Below, piece by piece: positions 1,059-40,826 of a stretch of 56,204 nt of DNA. Source of the stretch: Bacteroidaceae bacterium. GTDB lineage: Bacteria; Bacteroidota; Bacteroidia; Bacteroidales; Bacteroidaceae. Every line of letters begins with the position of its first letter. The stretch's first letter is position 1. Made by a program: the position numbers and the translations under genes. Below the pieces are notes generated by a model. That model worked only from the letters and a program-made list of their open reading frames with translations, was not told the DNA's origin and made no database searches. The stretch covers positions 1-56,204 of the forward strand of contig JAFYAT010000103.1 in assembly GCA_017540585.1 (NCBI GenBank), given 5' to 3'.

Positions 1059-4000
1059 ATGAAGAATAGAATTGTTTTGCTTTTGATGCTGTCAATCTTC
1101 AGCATCAAGTCCTTTTATGCTCAAAAGTATGATTTCTCCGCTTTTGTGCATGGAGGAAGTGATAATGGAGTGGTGGGAAAGATTGATGATGAATTCTCCG
1201 TTACTCCATCAGGACAGGCATCATATGAGATTCCTATAACCTTAATGGGTGAAACAGGTGGTGTTGCTCCAAAGTTGTCTGTATCGTATAACAGTTCGTC
1301 TGCAATAGGTCTGCTGGGTTTTGGTTTTGACCTTACGGGTCTGTCAATGATTCAGCGTGTTCCTGCAAACAGGTTCAATGATGGCTTCTCTGGCAGTGTC
1401 GATGTAACCACTGCCAGATTTGCACTTGATGGCTCACGTCTTATTAGAGTTAAACGTGAATCGGGTAAATATCTGTATGCGACGGAACAGGATAATTTCG
1501 CACGTATCACAGCTTATGGAGATAAGGTTAATCCTGATAGCTTTGTTGTCAATACAAAGGCTGGTTTGACTTATCTTTACGAGTCAAGTTCGTCTTTGCT
1601 TGGAAGTACTTCTCCTTCTCTGTATTGGATGGTAACAAAGGTTTCAGATACGAATGGAAACTATTTTGATGTTGCTTATGGTGGAAATAAGAGTGACAAC
1701 GAAATATATCCAGAAAGAATTTCGTACACCAGTAATGATATGAAAGGGCATGGTCCTTGGTATGCCTTAATATTTGAATATAAGTCTGCATCAGTTCCAA
1801 TAAATTATGTATTAGCTCCAAGAAAGTATATTGCAGGCATGCCTGTAAGAAAAAATCATATTTTGAAGAGTATTAGCCTTTATTCAGGTAGCGTCAAATT
1901 GAAAGAATATGGTTTTAGCTATCAATATAAGGCTGGTAACGCTTTTCTTGACAAGATATCTTTGAAATCATCTGATGGTAAATCATGGGAATCACTGAAT
2001 CCAACAAAGATTGATTGGTCGTTCCTTAACGATTTAAAATTCACGGAGGAGAAGGATTATATGCGTTTGCCAGTTAAAGACAATAAACTGTTTGTCCTTG
2101 ATTTTAATAATGATGGCTTGTCAGATTGCTTGTCTGTTCCAGCTAAGTCTGATACATGCAAATGGGATTTGTTTGTAAGTACCGGAGGAGACAAAACTAA
2201 TTTCATTGTGACGAATTACGGAGTCTTTACAGATAAAGACAATAATGCTATAAAAGGCAAAGTAGAAGATGTTGTTACAGGAGACTTCAATAACGATGGC
2301 CACGTGGATTGTGTAGTTATGTTTCATATCGATAATTCTTACAAAACATATTTGTACCTTAACACTTTGACACCTAACACTACGAACAAACAATGGTATC
2401 GTACATTCCAAATGGAAAAAGAACTGTATTACGGAAGTGAGAAGGGAGAAATGAGTGTTGTTGAAATTAATGATGATGGTATTCCTGATTTATTAATCCG
2501 TTTTAATGAAACACATTGTAGTCTGAAGAAGTTTATTTCTCGGACTAATGATGGTTATGTTACTCCTTTGAAATATTATGAAACACAGTCTTTTGGTCGC
2601 AATCTCGAACTTGTAAAAATTATAGACTTTGATGGCGATGGATTGAATGACATTCTTGACTTGAGAGATGATGGCTATAGAGTTTATTCTCTATATGAAC
2701 ATAGCTCATTCTATGATAAAGTTGCATCTGGTGACTATCCTCGTAAAGGCGATTATGTGTATTGTGGTGATTTGAATGGTGATGGAAAGACTGACTTGTT
2801 GTGTGCAAGTGATTCCAAGAAATGTACTCCATATTTCTCAACAGGTAAGGAATTCGTAAAGTTGTTACCAGGCTCTAATCCATTGGCATCAAGTAATGGT
2901 GATATAAATCTGTTTCCTGCAAGCGAGACCGAGATGTTCCTCGTAGATTTGAATGGTGATGGATTGGATGATGTTGTAGGTATTGACAGAAGATTGAATA
3001 ACGGAAAGGGCATAGGCTATCCACAGATATACATAAACAATGGAGACTGTCTTTTTGAAAAAGTGGAAGATACTCGTCGTCAGCGTAGTTTATTGCCGTT
3101 GGAAATATGTTCCTACTATGTCGGAGATTTTAACGGTGATGGTAAACAGGATTTTTTTTGTACGGGAAATCCAGATAATACAAACTATAGTAAAATGATG
3201 CATGCTGATTTGTATTGGATGTCTGTAACTCCTAATAACCTTGTCTCTCGTATCACTGATGGTATGGGTAATTCTACTGAGATAGAATACAAGTACATGA
3301 GTGATAAGGACGTATATACAAGAGATGATGTTCAATATGAAAACGTCAAGTCCATATCTGGTTCTTGGCCATTGGTGTATCAGGTTAAGACTCCTAATGG
3401 CGATTTTGGAGTTGATACGGTTCGATATTCCTATCATAATGCATTGATGCATACAGGAGGACGTGGCATCCTTGGATTCGAATCGATGACTACATTGGAT
3501 TTGACAACAAACACGAAGACAATTCAAACTAATGTTGTTTACAGTTCACACTATATCCTTGTTCCATCATCTTCTGAGACTTACATAAATGACCGACTTG
3601 TGGCAGAAAGCTCGACATGTTATGATTTGTTTGTGAATTCGAAAAATAAATTTGTGTATTCATATTTACCGACAGAAAAATCAGAACGTGAGTATGAATA
3701 TAATAGTGGCGAGCCAATAAAAGACGTATTAACCTTTATGCAATATGATGAGTATGGTAATGCTACTGAAATCGAAACAGACGATATGGTTTCGACGACA
3801 ATAACGTCAAATGAGTATGTAAATGATACCGTACGTTGGTTTTTAGGCCGTCTGACGAATACCAAAGTAGAAAAATATTCTTCAGGGAAAAAAGAAGTTC
3901 GTAAGTCTGCATTCGAGTATGATGATGTTACAGGATTACTACGTGCAGAAATTATTGAACCAGACAACAAAGCTTTAGGCTATAGAAAGACCTATGAGCG

Positions 4001-7000
4001 TGATGTGTATGGCAATATCACAAAGAGCACGATAACTCCGTTTGATACTAAATATTCACCTCGTGTTACTGAGAGTGAATATGAAAAATATGGCAGATTC
4101 CTTGTGAAAGAAAAAGATGCTCTGGGATTTGTTCAATCATACGATCTGGATGAATATAGAGGATTGGTTCTGAAATCAACAGATGCCAACGAACTTGTTA
4201 CGGAAAATACATATGATGCTTTTGGAAATGTCGTGAAGGTTCAGACACCTTTATCCACAACATATACAACTGCAGGTTGGGTAAAAGAATTGTATAGTGG
4301 TGCTATTGGAATTCATGCAAAATCAGACTTGCAATTTATAGCTCCATATACGGCTAAATATTTTGTCTTTACTGAAACTCCAGGACACTCATCCTCTGTT
4401 GAGTTCTTTGACTGTCTTGGAAGAAGTATACAAACTGTCACTGTAAAAGATTATTATGATGAGAACGGTGCCGGTGATGCCCGTAAAAAGATAGAGACTG
4501 GAAGGGATTACAATAGGAAGGGACAGGTGGTTTATGAGTATGGCCCATGTTTTGATATTGCCAAAAATGTCCCTGTAACTTATTATTTTTATGATGAATG
4601 TGGACGTGTTATAAAAAAAATCGGGGTAGATAATGATACCACAACATTTGAATATGATGGTTTGATAACTACAGTTACGGATGCAAAGGGGCATACTTCG
4701 AAAAAGGAAGTCGATATGCAAGGCAGGATGGTTAGAAGTACTGATGCCTTGGGTGGTGAAGTCCTCTATTATTATGATGCGTCAGGACGTAATGTTAAGA
4801 TTGTTGGTCCGAAGAAGGAAATCACAATGGGCTACGACATTATGGGTAACAGAATATCTATGCATGACCCAGATGTCTCTGATGGTACGATTTTTACTTC
4901 ATATAATGCTTTCGGTGAAATTGTAAAAACAGAAGATAGCCATGGCGTAACAACATTTGAATATGACAATGGTGGGCGATTGATAAAAGAAACTCGTCCG
5001 GATATGACTGTTACCAAGTCGTATGACAAGCAGCTTAAGGGATTCCTTGATTATGTAAAGAATGACAAGGTACAAGTAAGCTACTTTTATGACGAATATG
5101 GAAGGACAATCCGTGAAACACAGAAAGACGATAATACTCAACGGACTGATGAGGTCAGTTATGAATATGATGGTTATAGCCGTCTGGAATATACAAATTA
5201 TCCAAGTGGACTAAGGGTTAGAAACCATTATTCTCGTACTGGAGAATTGTTGTCCGTTGAGGATGCCAACGATAAGAATAAGTGCTATTGGCAGCTGGGT
5301 TATAATCGTAATCAAACTTTTAATGCCATTAATGCTAGAGGACAAATTTTGTGTGAGAAATATGGAAATGGTATTATTACAGATGTTCAATATAATGATT
5401 CAACAGGACGAATAAAGAATATAAAGGTAAGTCCAAATAGTGGAAGTTTGTTGGACTGGTCTTATCTGTATGATAAAAATGGCTGCCTGAAAGAACGTAC
5501 GGATAATAAACGAAACCTTACGGAATCATTTGATTATGATGCCCTCGACCGTCTTATATGTGCTAAGAAGAATGGAGAAGCATATCAGACAATGCGTTAT
5601 GATGCGGCAGGCAATATCGTATATAAGTCTGATGTGGGTGAGTATGTCTATGAGGAAAACTCTAACCGATTGAAGGAGGTGAATTCTACTTCGTACAAGC
5701 CTATGGAGTGGGATGAGATACAATATACTTCGTTCAACAAGATTCGTAGTGTCGTTGCAGGCAGGAACAGAATGACTATCAACTATGGCCCTTCCAAGAA
5801 CAGGACTTCTATGGTCATTGATGAGAACGGACAGAAGACTACATACGGATATTTTGGCAGTTTGTTTGAATATGTCCAGAAAAATGGTGAAAATACATAT
5901 AAAAACTATATCTTTGCAGCAGGAAAGTGTGTCGCAATTGTCGAGAATGTAGTTACATCCAAGACTTCCAAGACAAGGACACTTTATGTTCATCATGATT
6001 ATCTTGGTTCAATACAAGCATACTCTGACGAAAATCAGAATCTTGTGTCAGAGCTAAGCTATGATGCATGGGGACGCAGACGTAATCCTGATAACTGGGA
6101 ATACTACGATAAGATAGCTGATGCTGATGCTTTGCAGAACCGTGGTTTTGGCGGACATGAGCATCTTGACCTGTTTGAGATGATAAACATGAACGGTCGT
6201 ATGTACGACCCGGTTCTTGGACGTTTCCTTTCTCCTGACCCGTTGATTCAGGCTCCAGACTTCACACAGAGTCTAAACCGTTACAGCTATTGTCTGAACA
6301 ATCCATTAGCGCTGATAGATCCAAGTGGTTACAGTTGGTTCAGCAAGAACTGGAAGAGTCTCGTTGCTGCTTGTGTTGGTATTGCTGTCTCTGCAATTAC
6401 AGCTGGTAGTGCTTCTGGCTTGGGTATTGCCATTATTGCAGGTGCTGCTGGAGGTGCCGCTTCTGCATTTACTGGGGCTCTTCTTAATGGTGCTAATATT
6501 GGTGAAATCCTTAAATCTACCATAGGTGGTGGATTCATGGGCGCATTAAGTGGAGGTTTGAATTATTTTGCTGGTGGCGGAGATTTCTTGATGAGAATTG
6601 TCAAGCATTCATGCTTTGATGCTGCAATGGAAGGCATCCAAGGTGGTAATATGCTTCATGGATTTATCTCTGGTGCTATAAATGGTGCTTCTGATACATT
6701 CATTGGTGGCATGGATATGACAAAGGGACTTAGAATTGCCTGCAATGCTGTCATTGGTGGTACAGTATCAGAAATTGGTGGAGGCAAGTTCGCCAATGGT
6801 GCTATCACAAGTGCATTCAGTATGATGTTCAATGGATTGATGCATCCAGAAGGAAATAAACGAGCTGCACGCCTTGAATATGAGGAAATTGGAGGCGGCT
6901 ATTATTCTAATGGTGTACTTGTTGGAGAAAAACCTTTGAAATCTGTCTATCCTGAGTTTGACTTACTGTTAGGTGGTAGTTTGACTAAAGGGCTTGGTCG

Positions 7001-7316
7001 TGCGCTTAAAAGCGTAAATGGTTCGATTAAAGGTTTTGCAAATTGGGTAAAGAGCAAAACGCAAGGATCGTTCTTTAAAGGAACCAAACTTAGTAATGCT
7101 GCAAAAGAAAAAGCATTGAGAGGTAACTATCATGGATTCCCTGATAGTGTTGAAGCATTCGAAAAATATGGAGTTCGGTATAAGGCAATGGGTAAAGATG
7201 GCAATATGTATGAACATCTGGATATAAAAGGAAGTTATCATGGAAACGATGGAACTTTTCAGTTTATTAAAGATGGAGATAATATAATAACTCACAGATT
7301 TTTCAAAAAACAATAG
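1059..7316 (+). CDS. Giant secreted RHS/YD-repeat polymorphic toxin (SpvB-FG-GAP-RHS core-toxin tip)
   Basis: A 2085-residue protein. In order: signal peptide (about 1-21); SpvB/TcB-like N-terminal region (about 30-330, containing PSGQASYEIPI and SVSYNSSS); seven FG-GAP/VCBS-like acidic repeats of the type DFNNDGLSD and DLNGDGKTD (about 340-700); many YD repeats (about 730-1650); RHS core with GRMYDPVLGRFLSPDPL and NRYSYCLNNPLALIDPSG (about 1705-1757); a Gly/Ala-rich hydrophobic stretch (about 1765-1880); and a C-terminal tip (about 1945-2085) ending in DGTFQFIKDGDNIITHRFF. In known RHS proteins the YD region forms a shell enclosing the tip, which is released after the DPxG site. The tip resembles small nuclease tips of other polymorphic toxins, but the exact family is not certain. 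The presence of a signal peptide implies export through the Sec system and then the outer membrane, unlike T6SS-loaded RHS proteins. The immunity candidate follows 37 nt downstream. Confidence 0.93.
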   Translation: MKNRIVLLLMLSIFSIKSFYAQKYDFSAFVHGGSDNGVVGKIDDEFSVTPSGQASYEIPITLMGETGGVAPKLSVSYNSSSAIGLLGFGFDLTGLSMIQRVPANRFNDGFSGSVDVTTARFALDGSRLIRVKRESGKYLYATEQDNFARITAYGDKVNPDSFVVNTKAGLTYLYESSSSLLGSTSPSLYWMVTKVSDTNGNYFDVAYGGNKSDNEIYPERISYTSNDMKGHGPWYALIFEYKSASVPINYVLAPRKYIAGMPVRKNHILKSISLYSGSVKLKEYGFSYQYKAGNAFLDKISLKSSDGKSWESLNPTKIDWSFLNDLKFTEEKDYMRLPVKDNKLFVLDFNNDGLSDCLSVPAKSDTCKWDLFVSTGGDKTNFIVTNYGVFTDKDNNAIKGKVEDVVTGDFNNDGHVDCVVMFHIDNSYKTYLYLNTLTPNTTNKQWYRTFQMEKELYYGSEKGEMSVVEINDDGIPDLLIRFNETHCSLKKFISRTNDGYVTPLKYYETQSFGRNLELVKIIDFDGDGLNDILDLRDDGYRVYSLYEHSSFYDKVASGDYPRKGDYVYCGDLNGDGKTDLLCASDSKKCTPYFSTGKEFVKLLPGSNPLASSNGDINLFPASETEMFLVDLNGDGLDDVVGIDRRLNNGKGIGYPQIYINNGDCLFEKVEDTRRQRSLLPLEICSYYVGDFNGDGKQDFFCTGNPDNTNYSKMMHADLYWMSVTPNNLVSRITDGMGNSTEIEYKYMSDKDVYTRDDVQYENVKSISGSWPLVYQVKTPNGDFGVDTVRYSYHNALMHTGGRGILGFESMTTLDLTTNTKTIQTNVVYSSHYILVPSSSETYINDRLVAESSTCYDLFVNSKNKFVYSYLPTEKSEREYEYNSGEPIKDVLTFMQYDEYGNATEIETDDMVSTTITSNEYVNDTVRWFLGRLTNTKVEKYSSGKKEVRKSAFEYDDVTGLLRAEIIEPDNKALGYRKTYERDVYGNITKSTITPFDTKYSPRVTESEYEKYGRFLVKEKDALGFVQSYDLDEYRGLVLKSTDANELVTENTYDAFGNVVKVQTPLSTTYTTAGWVKELYSGAIGIHAKSDLQFIAPYTAKYFVFTETPGHSSSVEFFDCLGRSIQTVTVKDYYDENGAGDARKKIETGRDYNRKGQVVYEYGPCFDIAKNVPVTYYFYDECGRVIKKIGVDNDTTTFEYDGLITTVTDAKGHTSKKEVDMQGRMVRSTDALGGEVLYYYDASGRNVKIVGPKKEITMGYDIMGNRISMHDPDVSDGTIFTSYNAFGEIVKTEDSHGVTTFEYDNGGRLIKETRPDMTVTKSYDKQLKGFLDYVKNDKVQVSYFYDEYGRTIRETQKDDNTQRTDEVSYEYDGYSRLEYTNYPSGLRVRNHYSRTGELLSVEDANDKNKCYWQLGYNRNQTFNAINARGQILCEKYGNGIITDVQYNDSTGRIKNIKVSPNSGSLLDWSYLYDKNGCLKERTDNKRNLTESFDYDALDRLICAKKNGEAYQTMRYDAAGNIVYKSDVGEYVYEENSNRLKEVNSTSYKPMEWDEIQYTSFNKIRSVVAGRNRMTINYGPSKNRTSMVIDENGQKTTYGYFGSLFEYVQKNGENTYKNYIFAAGKCVAIVENVVTSKTSKTRTLYVHHDYLGSIQAYSDENQNLVSELSYDAWGRRRNPDNWEYYDKIADADALQNRGFGGHEHLDLFEMINMNGRMYDPVLGRFLSPDPLIQAPDFTQSLNRYSYCLNNPLALIDPSGYSWFSKNWKSLVAACVGIAVSAITAGSASGLGIAIIAGAAGGAASAFTGALLNGANIGEILKSTIGGGFMGALSGGLNYFAGGGDFLMRIVKHSCFDAAMEGIQGGNMLHGFISGAINGASDTFIGGMDMTKGLRIACNAVIGGTVSEIGGGKFANGAITSAFSMMFNGLMHPEGNKRAARLEYEEIGGGYYSNGVLVGEKPLKSVYPEFDLLLGGSLTKGLGRALKSVNGSIKGFANWVKSKTQGSFFKGTKLSNAAKEKALRGNYHGFPDSVEAFEKYGVRYKAMGKDGNMYEHLDIKGSYHGNDGTFQFIKDGDNIITHRFFKKQ

Positions 7317-8746: not shown

Positions 8747-9724
8747 ATGAAAACGAATATTAATATAAGGACAGTGATGACTGTCGTATTTTTTCTTATG
8801 TCATCTTACGTTGCAATGGCTCTTGACCCTGTAATGTATCTTGATAAGGATGGCAAACAGCAATGGTGTACTAACTATAAGATTATCACTGGCGAAGAAA
8901 GTGTCCTTACACGTGGATGGTATGTGGTAAGTGGTGATGTCCTCTGCAATTATAAGTCCTGTCACTCTGGTCTTATCGAAGTTCGTGGCAATGTTCATAT
9001 AATCCTAATGGATAATAGTGCTTTTAAATACGAGAATTCTTATGGATTTGTGGAAAGTGAGGAAGAAGACGTGTTTTTCAATTATGCAACTCTTAATCTC
9101 TATTCCCAAAGTTATGGCGATAATATGGGTAAGATTGTTATGAATATGGGGAACAGATATGCTTTTGGCACATACAACATGAATATATTTGGTGGAGATA
9201 TTGATATTACAGATACTGGTGGTGATTGCGCCTTCCATTGCCATGAGTTAACTATATGGAATGGAAAAATCAATATTCATCAAAAACAAAGTATAAGTAC
9301 TAATTTCTTGAATCTTTATGGTGGTGAGATACATTGCGATAAGAGTTTAAGGGTTCATGCTGGTTTGAAATTCGGTCAGTCAAAGTCTGGTTTGATACTT
9401 GATATCGGTGGATGTATAAATCTTAATGATATGTTTAATTTCTCTGGAGATGCTGTTATTGAGGATGGTGTTACGGTAGAGGTCTTCGGAAAGACATATA
9501 CAGAGAAGATTCCTGCATCAGATATGAAAAGCAGAGATATTTGGTCGCGGGATAAAACTGCGATTTTATCTGCAAAAACTTATGATGCGGTATCTGTTGG
9601 CGATGTGTTCTGTACAGAATCTAAAACCTCTGGCTGGTACACTCTCAACGGCATTCGCTTGAATGATAAGCCAACATCCGCAGGTATATATATTCATGAT
9701 GGTCGCAAGGTTATCGTGAAGTGA
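8747..9724 (+). CDS. Secreted repeat protein with C-terminal tag, paralogue B
   Basis: A 325-residue protein, co-directional and almost contiguous with its paralogue upstream. Shared features are a signal peptide ending in AMA, a start of the mature chain of the form LDPVMYLDKDGKQQWCT (paralogue A has LEPVKYLDENGQEQWVT), beta-solenoid-like GG turns, an SQSYGDNMG motif (SQSFGENMG in A), and the C-terminal tag WYTLNGIRLNDKPTSAGIYI then HDGRKVIVK. The two probably form a secreted pair exported by the same route. Function unknown; position after the toxin/immunity genes makes them cargo of the same accessory island. The gene ends in a convergent gap with tonB. Confidence 0.75.
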   Translation: MKTNINIRTVMTVVFFLMSSYVAMALDPVMYLDKDGKQQWCTNYKIITGEESVLTRGWYVVSGDVLCNYKSCHSGLIEVRGNVHIILMDNSAFKYENSYGFVESEEEDVFFNYATLNLYSQSYGDNMGKIVMNMGNRYAFGTYNMNIFGGDIDITDTGGDCAFHCHELTIWNGKINIHQKQSISTNFLNLYGGEIHCDKSLRVHAGLKFGQSKSGLILDIGGCINLNDMFNFSGDAVIEDGVTVEVFGKTYTEKIPASDMKSRDIWSRDKTAILSAKTYDAVSVGDVFCTESKTSGWYTLNGIRLNDKPTSAGIYIHDGRKVIVK

Positions 9725-9729
9725 TAAGT

Positions 9730-9800
9730 ATCATACTTACGCATAACAAACTTTCACTTTTCTGTCTGTGATTTCTCTTTATAGACAGAATAAGTATGAT
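9730..9800 (+). terminator. Nested hairpins after the secreted-protein pair
   Basis: An outer perfect 10-bp inverted repeat (9730-9739 with 9791-9800) encloses an inner perfect 8-bp stem (9760-9767 with 9783-9790). It lies 5 nt after the stop at 9724. The left part also contains the palindrome AAGTATCATACTT (9726-9738), whose reverse complement recurs at 39798-39810. Probably a transcription end structure for the accessory operon. Confidence 0.5.
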
Positions 9801-9879
9801 TTTTCCGCTATGTAAAGTACATCTTTACGCTTCGTAACTATCATGTTTACGGAGGGGAAAGATGTACTTTGTTTTTGTT
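9791..9879 (+). repeat. Structured repeat element, copy A (constant core, variable stem)
   Basis: The element has a conserved 5' box TAAGTATGAT, a 13-bp perfect stem (AAAGTACATCTTT at 9814-9826 with AAAGATGTACTTT at 9858-9870), an inner 5-bp stem CGTAA/TTACG (9833-9837 with 9847-9851) and a T-rich tail (9868-9879). A second copy lies at 39796-39886 with the same core and a different but still complementary outer stem. On the plus strand, stem plus T-rich tail could work as an intrinsic terminator. It sits between a plus-strand gene and the convergent tonB. Confidence 0.75.
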
Positions 9880-9897
9880 ACATTATTGGGATGAACT

Positions 9898-10614
9898 TTA
9901 CTGGAGACGGAAAGTGACAGGAAGAGTGAATTTGACACGTACTGGCTTGCCATGTTGCTTGCCTGGCCTCCATCTTGGCATGGATGATACAACTCGTAAT
10001 GCTTCCTTGTCAAGTGACGGGTCAACGGAACGCGTTACACGGGGTTCTACTATTGAACCATCACGGTTAACGATGAAGGAAACGAGTATGCGTCCTTGTA
10101 TGCCTGTCTCTTGTGCAGCTGAAGGATATTTGAGGTTCTTGGCTAACCATGTCATGAGGGCAGCATTTCCTCCTGGAAATGACGGGTCTTCTTCCACGAA
10201 CTCGAAGATTTCATCTTCACCCGTGTCCTCAAATGTTGGTGCGGGAGGTGCCATCATTGAAGGACCTTGTGGAGATGATGGTCCTGAGATGGCAGAGTTG
10301 ATGTCTTCTACAGTCTCTATCTTTGAGTCATCTATCTCTGTCTCGTTGTCCACGATATCGAGAATCTCTGCCACTTGAGGTGCATCTGCGGGTGGGGGAG
10401 GCGTGTTGGCAAAGACTGGCTGTGTGACAGGTACTATCTCCATCTCGTCGGGTACGAGTGAAGAGTTCTTGCATAGTGTACTCTTGTTTGTAAACTCATG
10501 GGTTGTCCATTCAAAGGCAGCAAGCATTGTTGCAAAGCTGATGACGAAACCAATGAGTAATGATGTTCCTTTCTGACCTTCGAGGTCGGCTTTCTTTGAT
10601 TTCTTTACTTCCAT
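9898..10614 (-). CDS. tonB: TonB family energy transducer
   Basis: A 238-residue inner-membrane-anchored periplasmic protein. A basic cytoplasmic N-terminus (MEVKKSKKADLEGQKGTS) precedes one membrane segment at about residues 19-38. A short proline-rich spacer (NTPPPPADAP, about 70-80) and an acidic linker follow, and the C-terminal TonB domain occupies about 145-238, with FPGGNAALMTWLAKNLKYP and WRPGKQHGKPVRVKFTLPV typical of Bacteroidetes TonB. It would couple the proton motive force via ExbB/ExbD to TonB-dependent outer-membrane receptors; none of these partners is in the window. It is transcribed alone, convergent with the accessory island. The proline-rich linker is short compared with enterobacterial TonB, as is usual for this phylum. 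Confidence 0.93.
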   Translation of the reverse strand: MEVKKSKKADLEGQKGTSLLIGFVISFATMLAAFEWTTHEFTNKSTLCKNSSLVPDEMEIVPVTQPVFANTPPPPADAPQVAEILDIVDNETEIDDSKIETVEDINSAISGPSSPQGPSMMAPPAPTFEDTGEDEIFEFVEEDPSFPGGNAALMTWLAKNLKYPSAAQETGIQGRILVSFIVNRDGSIVEPRVTRSVDPSLDKEALRVVSSMPRWRPGKQHGKPVRVKFTLPVTFRLQ

Positions 10615-10930: not shown

Positions 10931-11172
10931 AAGTAGGTGTGCAAAATTATTCGACCTGTACGGTTGAAACTGTATGTTGTTTTTTGCCGCAGTGCGGCCA
11001 GTTAAAAAAAAACATGGTAAAAACCAAATAAAATCAAAAAAAACATGTTTTTTCTTGTTTTTGTTCTGTTTACTTCCCGCTGGTCAGTGAGAAAAGTTCT
11101 TGACTGTTTTTTAATATGCACCTTTGTGCAAAACTACAACCATACAGTTCGAATAATTTTGCACATCTACTT
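10931..11172. repeat. Inverted-repeat-bounded non-coding element (242 bp)
   Basis: The gap from 10615 to 11246 has no gene. Within it, 10931-10966 and 11137-11172 are inverted copies of about 36 bp with three mismatches (outermost part AAGTAGRTGTGCAAAATTAT). The interior is A/T-rich with poly-A runs and contains a 45-bp segment (11052-11098) that recurs at 38276-38320. No target-site duplication is obvious. It looks like a MITE-like element or a very long-armed RNA hairpin; it encodes no protein. Confidence 0.7.
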
Positions 11173-11246
11173 GGAAAAAAATCTACTTATATAAATAATC
11201 TTGCATACGTACTCAGAGAAGAAAAATTGAAGGCGTGGAAATAAAA

Positions 11247-39725: not shown

Positions 39726-39747
39726 CATGTCCATTTATTAGTTTTTA

Positions 39748-39784
39748 GCCGTGTGTCAAACGTTATAATAGTTTGATACACGGC
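39748..39784 (+). terminator. Terminator after the immunity gene
   Basis: GCCGTGTGTCAAAC (39748-39761) pairs with GTTTGATACACGGC (39771-39784; one G-U pair), followed by a T-rich stretch. Confidence 0.8.
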
Positions 39785-39795
39785 TTTGTGTGTTA

Positions 39796-39886
39796 TAAGT
39801 ATGATACTTGTGTTATGTAAACTGCCACTTTACGCTTCGTAACTATCATGTTTACGAGGTGTAAAGTGGCAGTTTGTTTTTGTTTT
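39796..39886 (+). repeat. Structured repeat element, copy B (constant core, variable stem)
   Basis: Same layout as copy A at 9791-9879: TAAGTATGAT (39796-39805), ATGTAAA, outer stem AAACTGCCACTTTAC (39819-39833) with GTAAAGTGGCAGTTT (39861-39875), an identical 28-nt core at 39829-39856, and the T-rich tail TTTGTTTTTGTT. Between the copies the 7-nt variable part of the stem is GTACATC/GATGTAC in A and CTGCCAC/GTGGCAG in B, so both arms changed together. It sits between the immunity gene and the convergent EamA gene. Confidence 0.75.
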
Positions 39887-39908
39887 ATGCCTTGAAAGGA
39901 ATGTAATG

Positions 39909-40826
39909 TTATCTGCTTCCCATGAAAAGGAAGAGCATGGAGAGGAGGACAAGGGCAAGGTCGATGACCTTGGACTTGAGGTTCTTCTCCTTGAAGACCA
40001 TTGCTCCGAAGAGGAAGCTGACAATTACTGAACCACGGCGTACCATGCTGACGATGCTAATCATTGCTCCATCAAGTCCGAGTGCATAGAAGTATGCGAA
40101 GTCGGCAATGGAGAGGAATACGCTGATGAGGATGATGCACCAGTCCCAATGGAATGGGGTGGTCTTCTTGCGTGTTGGCCACCAAAGGAGGATGAGCATG
40201 GCAAGCATCATGAAGAACTGGTAGATGTTGTACCATGACTGTACAGCCATCTTGTCAAGTCCTACGCCATGGTTGGCAGGTGATGCCATGAGAAACTTGT
40301 CGTACAGTCCACTCATTGCTCCGAGGATGTTGGCAAGTGCAACGAACACAATCCATTTGTTATGCTTGAAGTTGATGCCCTCCTTCTTGCTTGAGCGTGA
40401 GAGCATATAGAGTCCTACCATTGCGATGATGACACCGCACCACTGCCATACGTTGAGTCGTTCGGAGAAGAAGGTGAGAGCACCTATGAGTACCATGACA
40501 GGTCGTGTGGCATTGATAGGTCCTACGATGGTGATAGGGAGGTGCTTGAGTCCGAAGTAGGCAAAGAGCCATGAACTGAGTACGATACATGACTTGAGGA
40601 GTATGTACTTGTGTTCCTCCCATCCGTATGAGTGGGTGTAGAAGAGTGAGTCTTCGCTGATGGTGCCATTCGCCGAGAGTATGATGAATGGAAGGAAGAT
40701 GAGACTCGAAAACAAAGTGTTGAGCAGCAATACTGGTATTACTGCATTATCCTTCAAACTTTTCTTTTTAAATACATCATAGAAGCCAAGCAGGCATGCT
40801 GATGTGAATGCTAAAATTAACCACAT
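39909..40826 (-). CDS. EamA/DMT-family transporter
   Basis: A 305-residue inner-membrane protein with about ten membrane helices in two EamA repeats (first about 1-140, LILAFTSACLLGFYDVFKKK; second about 155-300, GSVIVSFLFGAMVFKEKNLK). A characteristic segment is LPITIVGPINATRPVMVLIG. The drug/metabolite transporter superfamily exports or imports small metabolites; substrate unknown. It is the first core gene after the second accessory patch. Confidence 0.88.
   Translation of the reverse strand: MWLILAFTSACLLGFYDVFKKKSLKDNAVIPVLLLNTLFSSLIFLPFIILSANGTISEDSLFYTHSYGWEEHKYILLKSCIVLSSWLFAYFGLKHLPITIVGPINATRPVMVLIGALTFFSERLNVWQWCGVIIAMVGLYMLSRSSKKEGINFKHNKWIVFVALANILGAMSGLYDKFLMASPANHGVGLDKMAVQSWYNIYQFFMMLAMLILLWWPTRKKTTPFHWDWCIILISVFLSIADFAYFYALGLDGAMISIVSMVRRGSVIVSFLFGAMVFKEKNLKSKVIDLALVLLSMLFLFMGSR

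Follow-up and report, generated by a model that had tools for sequence, protein, structure and literature searches.

Dispersed intergenic stem-loop repeats that probably act at RNA 3′ ends in a Bacteroidaceae genome and two congeners

Two places in a 56,204-nucleotide stretch of DNA from a Bacteroidaceae bacterium (contig JAFYAT010000103.1, assembly GCA_017540585.1; the whole stretch is called the window below) carry copies of one structured element, raising the question of whether it is a mobile hairpin, a recombination site or an unusual kind of terminator, the options named in a sequence-only reading of the locus. That reading described the two copies accurately. Both carry the 5′ box TAAGTATGAT (at 9791 and 39796), a 28-nt core that is identical between them (0 mismatches) and a T-rich tail (Table 1), while their outer stems, GTACATC/GATGTAC and CTGCCAC/GTGGCAG, differ on both arms in four of the seven pairs. 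The fold of each copy beats 200 of 200 shuffles of its own sequence; the copy 2 region (39795-39888) reaches -41.8 kcal/mol, with z -8.5. A scan of the window with Rfam 15 gave no match above the gathering score.

Table 1. Coordinates of the repeat elements and the adjoining hairpin in the window.
Feature	Position	Strand	Remarks
Remnant of a third element, with 5′ module TAAGTATCATACTTACGCATAACAA	9723..9755	+	at the stop of the gene at 8747-9724
5′ module of copy 1, ATAAGTATGAT...	9790..9806	+	palindrome mostly decayed
Copy 1 hairpin	9813..9871	+	outer stem TAAAGTACATCTT/AAGATGTACTTTG; core 9824-9851; -28.7 kcal/mol, z -5.1
Copy 1 T-rich tail	9872..9879	+	read from sequence
Separate terminator-like hairpin, AGCCGTGTGTCAAAC...GTTTGATACACGGCT then TTGTG	39747..39785	+	about -24 kcal/mol
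5′ module of copy 2	39795..39811	+	small palindromic hairpin ATAAGTATGATACTTGT
Copy 2 hairpin	39818..39876	+	near-perfect stem; core 39829-39856
Copy 2 T-rich tail	39877..39886	+	read from sequence

Part of a third element lies ahead of copy 1. A similar gene end (94.5% over 55 nt) occurs at locus L050, where the 5′ module seen at 9723-9755 is followed by a whole hairpin; by this comparison, the window stretch is a half-unit whose hairpin part has diverged. Ahead of copy 2, the stop codon is followed first by the terminator-like hairpin listed separately in Table 1; a stretch 83% similar to this hairpin is found with equal spacing at L037. Both copies face convergent genes as described, namely a TonB_C gene at 9898-10614 and an EamA gene at 39909-40826. 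The accompanying claim that each copy ends a toxin/immunity patch is less firm: an RHS-repeat protein is encoded at 1059-7316, but the flanking genes lack a Pfam match above cut-off, with none at all for the gene before copy 1 and a DUF4304 match below cut-off (19 vs 23.2 bits) for the gene before copy 2. The RHS-repeat protein has FG-GAP and TcdB_toxin_midN matches and is polymorphic-toxin-like, with small genes behind it.

The element recurs well beyond the window. Its core was found with up to three mismatches at 14 places in the genome that the window comes from (G000; 3.62 Mb, 86% complete), whereas a reversed-pattern control gave 0, so the recurrence is not due to chance. A covariance model built from these 14 places (R1) returned at least 79 two-strand matches at E ≤ 0.1, equal to at least 40 distinct places, when 150 of 1,493 first-look candidates were scored. 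The working set comprised 47 copies, including five from the congener G050 and two from G021; locus L073, which came from pattern searches, has no R1 match and lies inside a 753-aa ORF, was excluded everywhere. A stricter model built from 45 copies (R2; E ≤ 0.01, 150 candidates scored per genome) gave at least 38 places in G000, all of them used in building the model, at least six in G050, one of these new and weak, and at least two in G021. Covariance searching, the check suggested by the sequence-only reading, thus recovered the family in its own genome and in two congeners. The outer arms of the additional copies pair with each other, and the core lies outside genes and insertion sequences, the exceptions being L073 and two viral matches that lack the hairpin.

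Five other congeners (G053, G041, G052, G022 and G051) yielded 0 elements with R2 at 150 candidates scored per genome, and R1 under stricter filters matched three of the 45 genomes of the genus. A degenerate pattern was matched in one of 399 genomes of the family, a sample that did not include G050 and G021, and in one record among genome contigs, a goat-rumen MAG (Bacteroidaceae bacterium) with a locus resembling L074 of G021. Plasmids and phages gave no blastn match to the element. A viral origin was rejected: the two exact viral core matches sit within long open frames, in the same surroundings and without the hairpin, and a longer pattern had 0 matches in viral sequences.

Read by eye, the consensus hairpin is TGCCACTTTACGCATCGTAAAC-ATCAT-GTTTACGAKGYGTAAAGTGGCA. 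It is about 60 nt long, or 97 nt with flanks, and conservation spans about 57 positions, loop included, at 0.98 bits per position. The notion of a constant core within a free outer stem, drawn from the two window copies, did not hold in the larger set; across 45 copies the outer stem seldom changes (it is usually GCCAC/GTGGC), the core also varies, and window copy 1 (9791) is the outlier. A 5′ palindrome resembling AAGTATNATACTTA (up to three substitutions) is present in 22 of the 47 copies, compared with 2/47 for each of two control stretches. The consensus of this 5′ module, entered by hand, is identical to the apex and 3′ arm of the hairpin at 22 of 33 positions, a level reached by 0 of 20,000 composition shuffles, and owing to this resemblance the full element appears to be composed, mosaic-like, of related units. 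The 5′ box had been proposed to form a pseudoknot with the loop, yet the necessary complementarity occurs in just five of the 22 copies carrying the palindrome; its sequence suggests instead that the box is related to the apex and 3′ arm. Some 55 nt after the hairpin are common to L043, L046, L047, L061, L066 and L083, mostly before different genes, and this shared stretch ends in TATCTTTG, which we take to be promoter-like.

Pairing within the stem is under selection. In our own alignment of the 45 distinct copies (with a single gap shifted by script; L071, L072 and L073 left out), 90.1% of 837 stem cells pair, compared with 84.7 ± 0.6% after shuffling, and 12 of 19 pairs show changes on both sides, compared with 5.5 ± 1.5; 0 of 1,000 shuffles, which ignore the relatedness of the copies, reached either value. 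When partners were slid along the stem, the paired share fell to 36-44%, whereas double changes persisted in 4-10 pairs. The double-change count is therefore weak taken alone, and the paired share serves as the better control. The alignment made by the tool, with 13 pairs, agreed: 93.3% of cells paired against 90.6% shuffled (0/500), with seven double-change pairs against 2.1 shuffled (1/500) and 2-5 with slid partners, these shuffles likewise taking no account of relatedness. G.U cells outnumber A.C cells by 73 to 21, although 25 of the 73 fall in a single pair. In 40 of 47 copies, the forward strand gives the more stable fold. Both strand preferences are partly circular because the model set the orientation.

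The copies lie between genes and are oriented with respect to them. Mechanical ORFs of at least 70 aa leave 44 of 47 copies untouched; those on the opposite strand that overlap L061 (72 aa), L066 (98 aa) and L083 (161 aa) are taken to be spurious. With ORFs of at least 100 aa, 44 of the 47 copies could be classed as 22 convergent (L083 only by virtue of its 161-aa overlapping ORF), 15 in tandem with the genes, three in tandem against them and four divergent. Convergent positions are thus more frequent than among element-free gaps (22/44 vs 24/118; Fisher p = 0.0004), these background gaps being drawn from the window and from loci chosen for carrying elements, and tandem copies follow the direction of the genes (15 vs 3; p = 0.008). 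Raising the ORF limit gave 23/15/2/2 at 130 aa and 20/15/2/1 at 165 aa, in the same order of classes. The 12 nt after the stem contain a mean of 5.7 T (n = 44; flanks 31.5%), with six or more T in 23/44, and the 12 nt before it a mean of 3.9 A (flanks 29%), L070 to L073 being left out of these counts. At 35 loci (L071, L072 and L073 left out), the stem base is a median of 63 nt behind the stop codon and within 100 nt in 25.

The convergent excess and the T enrichment bear out the terminator-like position and T-rich 3′ side noted from the two window copies. Together with the selected pairing, they lead us to favour, as fairly likely, the view that these are lineage-specific REP/ERIC-like intergenic repeats that have spread in G000 and two congeners and serve as hairpins at RNA 3′ ends. 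On this account, each copy would be transcribed together with the gene ahead of it, and the RNA copy would fold into a long hairpin whose 3′ side is rich in T, providing an extra intrinsic terminator or a 3′-end stabiliser; between convergent genes, the hairpin could work from both sides. The elements probably do act at RNA 3′ ends, although several observations weigh against the account. Four of the 44 classed elements lie between divergent ORFs, and no target-site duplication was established. Furthermore, an extra terminator-like hairpin stands between the stop codon and the element at 7/35 loci, window copy 2 included (L071, L072 and L073 again left out; this detector misses L050 and a by-eye hairpin before L037), so the element is not the sole terminator at those loci. 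A stricter detector found such hairpins at 2/37 loci (L050 and L064) and also missed the one before L037. Our own terminator detector passed 10 of 45 elements, and a simple consensus terminator scan flagged neither window copy.

Comparison with G050 provides one orthologous locus that lacks the element. At L036, a single G050 HSP crosses the element site, and the stop-to-start distance is 283 nt in G000 vs 188 nt in G050, the difference of 95 nt being about one element. The G050 orthologue retains a stem-loop and T run behind the stop codon, like the separate one in G000. The intergenic sequences align too weakly there for the ends to be placed, and no target-site duplication was seen. Searches with the flanks of L036, L042, L049 and L064 reached 26 loci in relatives, and R1 detected 0 elements in these. 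The shorter gap would also suit a MITE, that is, a non-autonomous element mobilised in trans and bounded by ends such as AATAAGTATG...CATACTTATT; its hairpin would then be a transposase substrate and any RNA role incidental. Pointing the same way, L035 has 10-nt matching ends (GATAAGTATG/CATACTTATC), a few other copies end in CATACTTWT by eye, and the window holds another MITE-like repeat with inverted ends of about 24 nt. Even so, we regard a MITE as unlikely. The 5′ module is missing from all but 22 of the 47 copies, target-site duplications were not seen, and the strand asymmetry better suits RNA. No partner transposase was found, none being noticed among the neighbour ORFs listed, with PF01797 as the one family searched systematically.

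Other repeats share this DNA. The MITE-like repeat of the window occupies about 245 nt (10931-11174) between inverted ends AAGTAGGTGTGCAAAATTATTCGA and TCGAATAATTTTGCACATCTACTT, identified by eye; some 130 nt of the interior are found again at L087, L093, L097, L099, L100 and L104, and near L032 and L069 comparable ends seem to enclose another interior sequence. At L104 (G000 contig C31, 9400-10230), an IS200-type Y1 transposase gene is flanked, judging by eye, by two direct near-copies of a different short repeat, CCGTAGGTTCTACGAACCCACGG...GACGGTTTCACCGTC; searches beside it found 0 and 1 small pair of inverted repeats.

Alternatively, the hairpin could mark the boundary of exchangeable accessory modules, at which single defence-like genes insert or are swapped. 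Several arrangements are suggestive of this. A DUF4143/AAA gene region adjoining the hairpin is 98.4-98.9% identical at two places in G000 and one in G050 (L067, L062 and L082), and between the two G000 places, compared over 445 nt up to a contig end, homology begins at the hairpin. A GNAT block is flanked by hairpins on both sides in contig C6 and by a half and a whole hairpin in C1. The G050 neighbour differs on one side of the element at L042, L049 and L064, and gene order on one side likewise differs at L061/L083. However, the rate of order breaks elsewhere has no control, gene order is kept at L036, the C3 copy is truncated where its contig stops, and in G050 the distance between hairpin and DUF4143 gene is about 66 nt longer, with homology to contig C135 resuming after the hairpin. 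G000 contig C132 and G050 contig C4, otherwise in the same order, each have an element in the same variable interval.

At the base of their stem, integron attC sites carry the boxes RYYYAAC and GTTRRRY. These boxes are found in 0/47 copies on either strand, which speaks against an attC identity, and the integron integrase model TIGR02249 had matches in two of the three incomplete genomes, 0 of them above cut-off; the recombination site suggested by the sequence-only reading is thus unsupported, and we judge the module-boundary explanation quite improbable. The specific version in which the hairpins are docking sites for cassette-like exchange of single defence-type genes, without integron attC or integrase, seems highly doubtful; its cargo could be such neighbours as Abi_2, RhuM, PIN, GNAT, the DUF1016 nuclease or the DUF4143 ATPase, or RHS-associated small genes. 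Nine neighbour proteins picked by eye matched DUF4143/AAA, GNAT, RhuM, DUF1016/YhcG nuclease, PIN, Abi_2, ORF6N and AAA-ATPase, with one lacking a match, while further genes among those listed look housekeeping-like by eye; an accessory-gene bias is consequently a lead, not a result. Finally, that these are unrelated terminators grown alike by convergence, as their anatomy and position might suggest, is extremely unlikely given the conservation of about 57 positions including the loop, the presence in only three of 45 genomes of the genus and the addition of the element to an existing terminator at L036.

The favoured account, a REP/ERIC-like repeat acting at RNA 3′ ends, can be set beside known families. 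Two reports describe REP/BIME sequences as short palindromes behind genes, between convergent and co-directional ORFs and in both orientations, with G.T pairs in the stem taken as a sign of an RNA role, and mention CGTC-tagged REPs in Bacteroidetes as well (PMC3733652; PMC2817692). The present family similarly has at least 38-40 short palindromic intergenic copies, a gene-end position and G.U (G.T) pairs, but its stem is longer and its copies are fewer. REP tags at the stem base are scarce (GTAG 2, CTAC 1, CGTC 1 and GACG 1 of 44 copies, with L070 to L073 left out). PF01797 was found in one gene of G000 and 0 of G050 and G021 (86, 86 and 55% complete, respectively), and that gene is not a RAYT: it scored 73.5 bits with the IS200 model (cut-off 55) and 18.1 with the RAYT model (cut-off 80), and its locus, L104, has no R1 element. 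With no REP tag and no RAYT found by PF01797 in these three incomplete genomes, the family is filed as REP/ERIC-like and not as REP.

ERIC-type families share one long stem-loop among tens of intergenic copies, and Yersinia ERIC is reported to have an RNA-level effect on neighbouring genes (PMC2267715). Dispersed intergenic copies with one stem-loop and selected pairing are found here too, although the hairpin is about 60 nt long (97 nt with flanks), against the 127 nt given there for E. coli ERIC (PMC2267715). The MITEs BrickBuilt and MITE239 of Porphyromonas gingivalis are intergenic with inverted ends resembling those of the IS5 family, and one BrickBuilt copy sits behind an intact natural terminator (PMC4596501). 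They share phylum and intergenic location with this element, but the ends published in that report do not, by eye, resemble it. Paired DNA uptake sequences form terminator-like hairpins from an inverted pair of a repeated motif (PMC2267715). That identity was rejected here because unpaired copies are nearly absent: GTAAAGTGGCA occurs 16 times in elements and 0 times elsewhere in 272,548 bases, and AAAGTGGCA 21 times in elements and four times elsewhere in the same bases, two of those four lying in elements that the mask missed.

The family adds a well-supported repeat with compensatory changes to a Bacteroidaceae lineage. REP-like repeats and MITEs have already been reported for the phylum, and the literature searches listed none that shares this sequence or comes from this group. 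If the elements are active at RNA 3′ ends, they would exemplify how a dispersed repeat can furnish additional terminators, and its copies would offer a natural mutational series for tests of termination or RNA stability.
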